Source: Synechococcus sp. PCC 7502 (GTDB lineage: Bacteria; Cyanobacteriota; Cyanobacteriia; Pseudanabaenales; Pseudanabaenaceae). Taken from it: a stretch of DNA of 64,000 nucleotides. The notes beneath the pieces are model-generated. The model was not told where the DNA came from. It made no database searches and was given only the letters and a program-made list of their open reading frames with translations. Of this stretch, positions 46,985 through 47,382 are shown one piece after another (positions within the stretch are counted from its first letter, which is position 1; each line of letters begins with the position of its first letter). Location: contig NC_019702.1 in assembly GCF_000317085.1 (NCBI RefSeq), positions 2,572,394 to 2,636,393 on the forward strand, given 5' to 3'. A program made the position numbers and the translations under genes.

Positions 46985-47012
46985 TTGCAAGATTGTAAAG
47001 CTATGTTAAGAT
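46985..47012 (+). promoter_or_regulatory. Predicted promoter of the 78-aa membrane protein gene
   Basis: TTGCAA (46985-46990), a 16-base spacer, and TAAGAT (47007-47012) precede the ATG at 47044. An HLR1-type element starts three bases after the -10. The hexamers each deviate from consensus, but they are well spaced. Confidence 0.55.
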
Positions 47013-47014
47013 TA

Positions 47015-47032
47015 TTTACATAAGTTTACAAA
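47015..47032 (+). promoter_or_regulatory. HLR1-type light-response element (candidate RpaB site)
   Basis: TTTACATAAGTTTACAAA exactly fits the HLR1 consensus (G/T)TTACA(T/A)(T/A)NN(G/T)TTACA(T/A)(T/A), bound by the response regulator RpaB. It covers the expected transcription start, three bases beyond the -10. In other genes a site in this position represses under low light and releases on high light. Confidence 0.7.
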
Positions 47033-47043
47033 ATCTAAATCCT

Positions 47044-47280
47044 ATGAAAACCACCTTCAATTACTCTGGCTCTAATCTTTTTACTCCAACTGCGTTTCTG
47101 CCCGAATTTAATAATTTTGCCACCATCAGTGCTACCCAAGCTTGGTCATTATTTTTCACAGCTAGCCGTGAAGATACAGCCCTTGGCTCAGATTTTGGCG
47201 CAGGACAATTCTGGACAAATTTATTAATTGCCACCGTTGTTTCTAGCATTCTCAGTATTGTCATATTTCAGTCACTGTAG
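47044..47280 (+). CDS. Small single-pass membrane protein, candidate high-light-responsive, 78 aa
   Basis: I do not recognise this protein. Its 78 residues begin with an aromatic- and Asn-rich soluble part and end with one hydrophobic helix (about residues 56-78, starting FWTNLLIATVV and running to FQSL). It lacks the ExxxGR chlorophyll-binding motif, so it is not a standard high-light-inducible (Hlip) protein. The preceding promoter carries an HLR1 element at the transcription start and a strong terminator follows at 47350, so it is a separately regulated monocistronic gene. The simplest inference is a stress-linked membrane protein, perhaps of the thylakoid, but function is unknown. Confidence 0.72.
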   Translation: MKTTFNYSGSNLFTPTAFLPEFNNFATISATQAWSLFFTASREDTALGSDFGAGQFWTNLLIATVVSSILSIVIFQSL

Positions 47281-47349
47281 TTCTTTCACTACCAAAAATA
47301 CTAAGGACTGCATCAACCCAGATGTTTATTAACTGCTAATGCGTAAATG

Positions 47350-47382
47350 CCAACTTCTCAAACCAGAGGTTGGTTTTTATTT
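47350..47382 (+). terminator. Rho-independent terminator of the 78-aa protein gene
   Basis: CCAACTTCT (47350-47358) pairs with AGAGGTTGG (47365-47373) as nine base pairs with one G-T wobble, around a six-base loop, followed by TTTTTATTT. Confidence 0.88.

Follow-up and report, generated by a model that had tools for sequence, protein, structure and literature searches.

LilA (Slr1544) of Synechocystis sp. PCC 6803 is the closest described counterpart of the small protein analyzed here (PMC7372957, PMC6331805, PMC6789579). Its gene is the second one in the hliB–lilA operon, ssr2595–slr1544 (PMC7372957), and is induced by high light and most stresses (PMC6789579, PMC6331805); knowledge of LilA dates from 2008 (Kufryk et al., cited in PMC7372957), and in PMC7496141 an association of the protein with HliB and HliC is attributed to the same work (Kufryk et al. 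2008). HliA/C and HliB/C pairs are located on CP47 (PMC11449106). The consensus of the regulator RpaB is KTTACAWWN2KTTACAWW, the HLR1 element, and RpaB represses from a site over the transcription start (PMC13421787). HliA/HliB-type Hlips (small CAB-like proteins) are small one-helix proteins with the same HLR1 promoter layout as the gene described below, and they share an operon with lilA in most relatives. SliP4 (HliR1) is likewise small, one-helix, RpaB-controlled, and strongly induced by high light (PMC12850537, PMC5126843), but it has 37 aa, compared to 78 here, and its partners are NDH-1 and the photosystems, so that by description it is set apart; hliR1 has been reported only from Synechocystis. 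The difference in length and this reported occurrence led us to reject an identity of the protein with HliR1/SliP4. The small proteins Psb34 and Psb35, which reportedly influence how Hlips bind at CP47 (PMC11449106), provide a model for a non-Hlip helper, the likeness being one of role only; both were compared by description, and Psb34 has the HliA/B N-terminus, which LilA lacks.

The analyzed window, a 64-kb stretch (64,000 nucleotides) of the Synechococcus sp. PCC 7502 genome, contains a member of the same family as Slr1544, of the same length class, with a single C-terminal helix and an HLR1 control region. Unlike lilA of the Synechocystis operon, it stands apart from hli, no hli gene adjoining it, and is equipped with an HLR1 promoter and a terminator of its own. 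The protein family is known; the variant found here is a free-standing lilA with its own HLR1. The features are as follows (window coordinates unless stated otherwise):

46985–46990, forward strand: -35-like hexamer TTGCAA, read from the sequence; lilA/hliB promoters of relatives have TTGCAA or TTGACA in the same place.
46992–47009, reverse strand: second HLR1-like site, 17/18, TTAACATAGCTTTACAAT, from the consensus scan, one mismatch.
47007–47012, forward strand: -10 hexamer TAAGAT, read from the sequence, with a TG extension at 47004–47005.
47015–47032, forward strand: perfect HLR1 (predicted RpaB site), TTTACATAAGTTTACAAA, matching the consensus at all defined positions.
47044–47280, forward strand: lilA orthologue, 78 aa, one membrane helix, from the ORF, homology, and hydropathy.
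47131–47187, forward strand: codons 30–48, first predicted helix with the near-invariant family motif TQAWS, from AlphaFold (middling confidence) and alignments.
47194–47274, forward strand: codons 51–77, predicted membrane helix, from AlphaFold and hydropathy.
47349–47374, forward strand: intrinsic terminator, 10-bp stem and U tail, -15.9 kcal/mol, z = -5.
3472768–3473448 of the genome: rpaB, from the match to NF045944.

The fit of the HLR1 to the consensus at every defined position and its place just past a promoter -10, both noted in the preliminary description, are confirmed. The extended -10 (TGt-TAAGAT) is separated by a 16-nt spacer from the -35-like hexamer, and the HLR1 lies two bases past it and therefore covers the predicted transcription start, spanning roughly -4 to +13. 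Relative to this predicted start, the site falls within the positional rule for RpaB (about -38 to +23; PMC13421787). The promoter matches the sigma-70 consensus at 8 of 12 positions, and for this reason was missed by a generic promoter scan. It aligns, however, with the Synechocystis hliB promoter and with those of lilA genes elsewhere. The TGTTAAGAT core of the -10 region is retained in most Pseudanabaena relatives, and a 17/18 site overlapping the -10, on the same strand as the site at 46992–47009, recurs in most Pseudanabaena lilA promoters. The hli promoter of the same genome stands outside this alignment and was taken directly from the genome sequence; here, hli has GTTACAATAATTTACATAAGGTT at the position where lilA has GTTAAGATTATTTACATAAGTTT. 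Taken with the alignment, this comparison suggests that lilA retained an hli-type promoter after the two genes had parted.

The open reading frame is coding, since differences from the nearest relative are distributed as 19/13/56 over codon positions 1, 2, and 3. Hydropathy and the AlphaFold model (mean pLDDT 69.7, middling) agree on one membrane helix at about residues 51–77. A 78-residue single-helix protein followed by a strong terminator had also been described previously, and both are seen again here.

The description of this protein as unrecognized and undescribed does not hold. In a Synechocystis-genus genome, identified as such by an hliR1 start with 2 mismatches in 27 nt, an HLR1 is followed by hliB and, 108 nt further on, by a family member to which the window protein is 45% identical over 64 residues (E = 4e-19). 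This congener copy at the same operon served as the homology reference, standing in for Slr1544 of strain 6803. Since the homologue sits behind hliB, in the operon named hliB–lilA in the literature, the window protein is, on homology and gene order, an orthologue of LilA. Searches of Pfam, NCBIfam, and PDB by sequence and by profile yielded no credible match to it, and no match to PDB was found by Foldseek with the model; a hit to DUF4229 (E = 0.02) was under the cut-off of that family and was dropped. As no LilA model exists in Pfam or NCBIfam, LilA relatives are filed as hypothetical proteins. PHROGs gave weak matches only, to families of unknown function (best 4e-4); no relative was found in phage records or viral contigs, and a phage origin of the gene is not supported.

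The family is present in 37 of 58 genomes of close relatives, so that absence from all relatives, named in the preliminary description as a refutation, clearly does not apply; among the Cyanobacteriia sampled, 89 of 291 genomes have it. Since about 70% of the sampled Cyanobacteriia have no detectable lilA, Hlips in general can function without the gene. Among named genomes, a scan gave 164 family loci, including those of Pseudanabaena, Nostoc, Scytonema, Fischerella, Oscillatoria, and Leptolyngbya. Alignments of 28 and 43 members reveal the core F.pdFN.F ... QAWSLFFTA..eD..LG, which is present in the window protein. A shorter paralogue family of about 61–77 aa with the same QAWSLF core and without the N-terminal extension occurs in Pseudanabaena relatives and other lineages (loci L030, L163–L181); it is mostly unlinked to hli, while copy L179 follows the apparent end of an Hlip gene.

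An hli motif lies within 600 bp in 75 of 139 distinct family loci, nearly always just upstream of lilA and on the same strand, and 48 of the 71 scorable hli–lilA operons have an HLR1 of at least 17/18 before hli. On annotated plasmids of Nostoc and Trichormus, the family gene is annotated as hypothetical and follows, after 62 nt, a gene labelled either high light inducible or chlorophyll a/b-binding protein; the pair on Trichormus variabilis plasmid A (L114) has a DUF1636 gene and genes for siderophore uptake in its vicinity, and that on Nostoc edaphicum pNe_5 (L115) is near cytochrome c6, DUF1636, and metE genes. At loci L156 and L158 the order is reversed: lilA precedes a gene in the same orientation for a short Hlip of 47 aa. 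The remaining state is represented by 64 solo lilA loci, scored within 130 nt of the start: nine have a perfect HLR1 and 24 have at least 17/18, compared to 0 and 0.09, respectively, for shuffled upstream regions, although these loci are related and do not amount to 24 independent cases. On the family tree, built from few columns, the solo-with-HLR1 state needs at least six changes on the starred branches and hence is not a single inherited case. In four Nostoc loci (L049, L055, L059, L074), hli before an intact lilA has an in-frame TGA at the same codon, and in three others (L048, L092, L102), the Arg of the NGR motif in hli is changed while lilA is intact. LilA is, therefore, not tied to the adjacent Hlip alone, and such decay or alteration of hli represents one possible route to separation of the two genes.

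The HLR1 at the window gene might be a chance match, with the gene outside RpaB control. Indeed, a perfect match is no proof of binding, and in some Pseudanabaena relatives just 15–16 of the 18 positions match at this place before lilA. However, the window has no exact match besides the site at 47015–47032, none arose in 400 dinucleotide-shuffled versions of this sequence, and the whole 3.58-Mb genome has only three (the reversed pattern has one match), all directly upstream of Hlip or lilA genes: the other two precede genes for Hlips of 70 and 99 residues with the ExxNGRxAMIGF motif. Together with the excess of sites at the mutually related solo lilA loci (24 against 0.09) and the alignment of the window promoter with that of Synechocystis hliB, this makes coincidence very improbable, and co-regulation of lilA and hli is well supported by the promoter sequences. 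RpaB itself is encoded in the genome (NF045944, 391 bits at a cut-off of 330); a 54-aa Hlip gene (about 3473855) is found some 400 bp from rpaB, oriented away from it. None of the five hli loci of this genome adjoins the window lilA, and three of the five hli genes, including the one near rpaB, have no good HLR1 (best 13–16/18), so that the Hlips of this genome form two regulatory groups. The high-light switch proposed in the preliminary description is thus supported by a perfect HLR1 that occupies the position of repression, by the recurrence of this site before two Hlip genes of the genome, by the presence of rpaB, and by the retention of an HLR1 before the gene in several other lineages; the supposedly undescribed protein, by contrast, is a LilA orthologue.

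As for function, LilA itself could be a light-harvesting-like protein of divergent sequence, with chlorophyll and carotenoid bound and with the energy-dissipating role of Hlips. The literature places it in the extended Lil family, albeit as "related to a lesser extent" (PMC6331805), it has one membrane helix, and a G-R-F triplet at the helix start is common to the LilA family and Hlips. Yet the Arg of G-R is replaced by Gln in the window protein, the ExxNGRxA chlorophyll-binding motif is absent from this protein, as observed before, and from all members of both alignments, no match to the light-harvesting family PF00504 was found in the Pfam search, and profile–profile comparison of the LilA family with HliA/B (hhalign) detected no homology (probability 0.3%, 3 aligned columns). 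We consider this function improbable, and the published label appears doubtful, finding no support in the family profile built here. A separate light-stress job, e.g., in photosystem assembly or membrane organization, with the HLR1 and the hli operon in common merely through the same timing, is less easily dismissed, though still unlikely: lilA is intact where the adjacent Nostoc hli has decayed, solo lilA occurs in several lineages, and the short paralogues are mostly unlinked to hli. On the other side are the association with HliB and HliC cited in PMC7496141 and the linkage to hli, which recurs in numerous families, not always with the same gene order, and points to a direct LilA–Hlip relation.

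We therefore favor, with a probability of roughly 0.7, a free-standing lilA orthologue repressed by RpaB in low light, whose product acts in high light as a partner of Hlips on photosystem II intermediates. In low light, phosphorylated RpaB on the HLR1 over the -10 and the start site would block RNA polymerase at lilA; in high light, RpaB would release the HLR1, and lilA would be transcribed along with the hli genes bearing the same site. LilA would then enter the thylakoid membrane via its C-terminal helix, the TQAWS-containing helix presumably lying on the membrane, and would team up with Hlips of the HliA/HliB type on CP47-containing intermediates of photosystem II, binding no chlorophyll through the Hlip motif, which it lacks. 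For the window protein, RpaB binding, light response, thylakoid location, and Hlip partnership are all predicted from the locus and its relatives; by analogy with the Synechocystis literature, a role as a thylakoid stress protein is plausible. More tentatively, and with somewhat less than even confidence, LilA may define a distinct family of Hlip partners without pigment, outside the light-harvesting-like proteins and placed under HLR1 via the hli operon or via an own HLR1 promoter kept after separation.

Because lilA goes along with the Hlips across cyanobacteria, either within one operon or through an HLR1 of its own, LilA emerges as a clear candidate for a partner of Hlips, and the absence of homology to Hlips renders its "light-harvesting-like" label testable. 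Unlike the operon arrangement, the free-standing lilA of this genome could be deleted or induced without touching hli.
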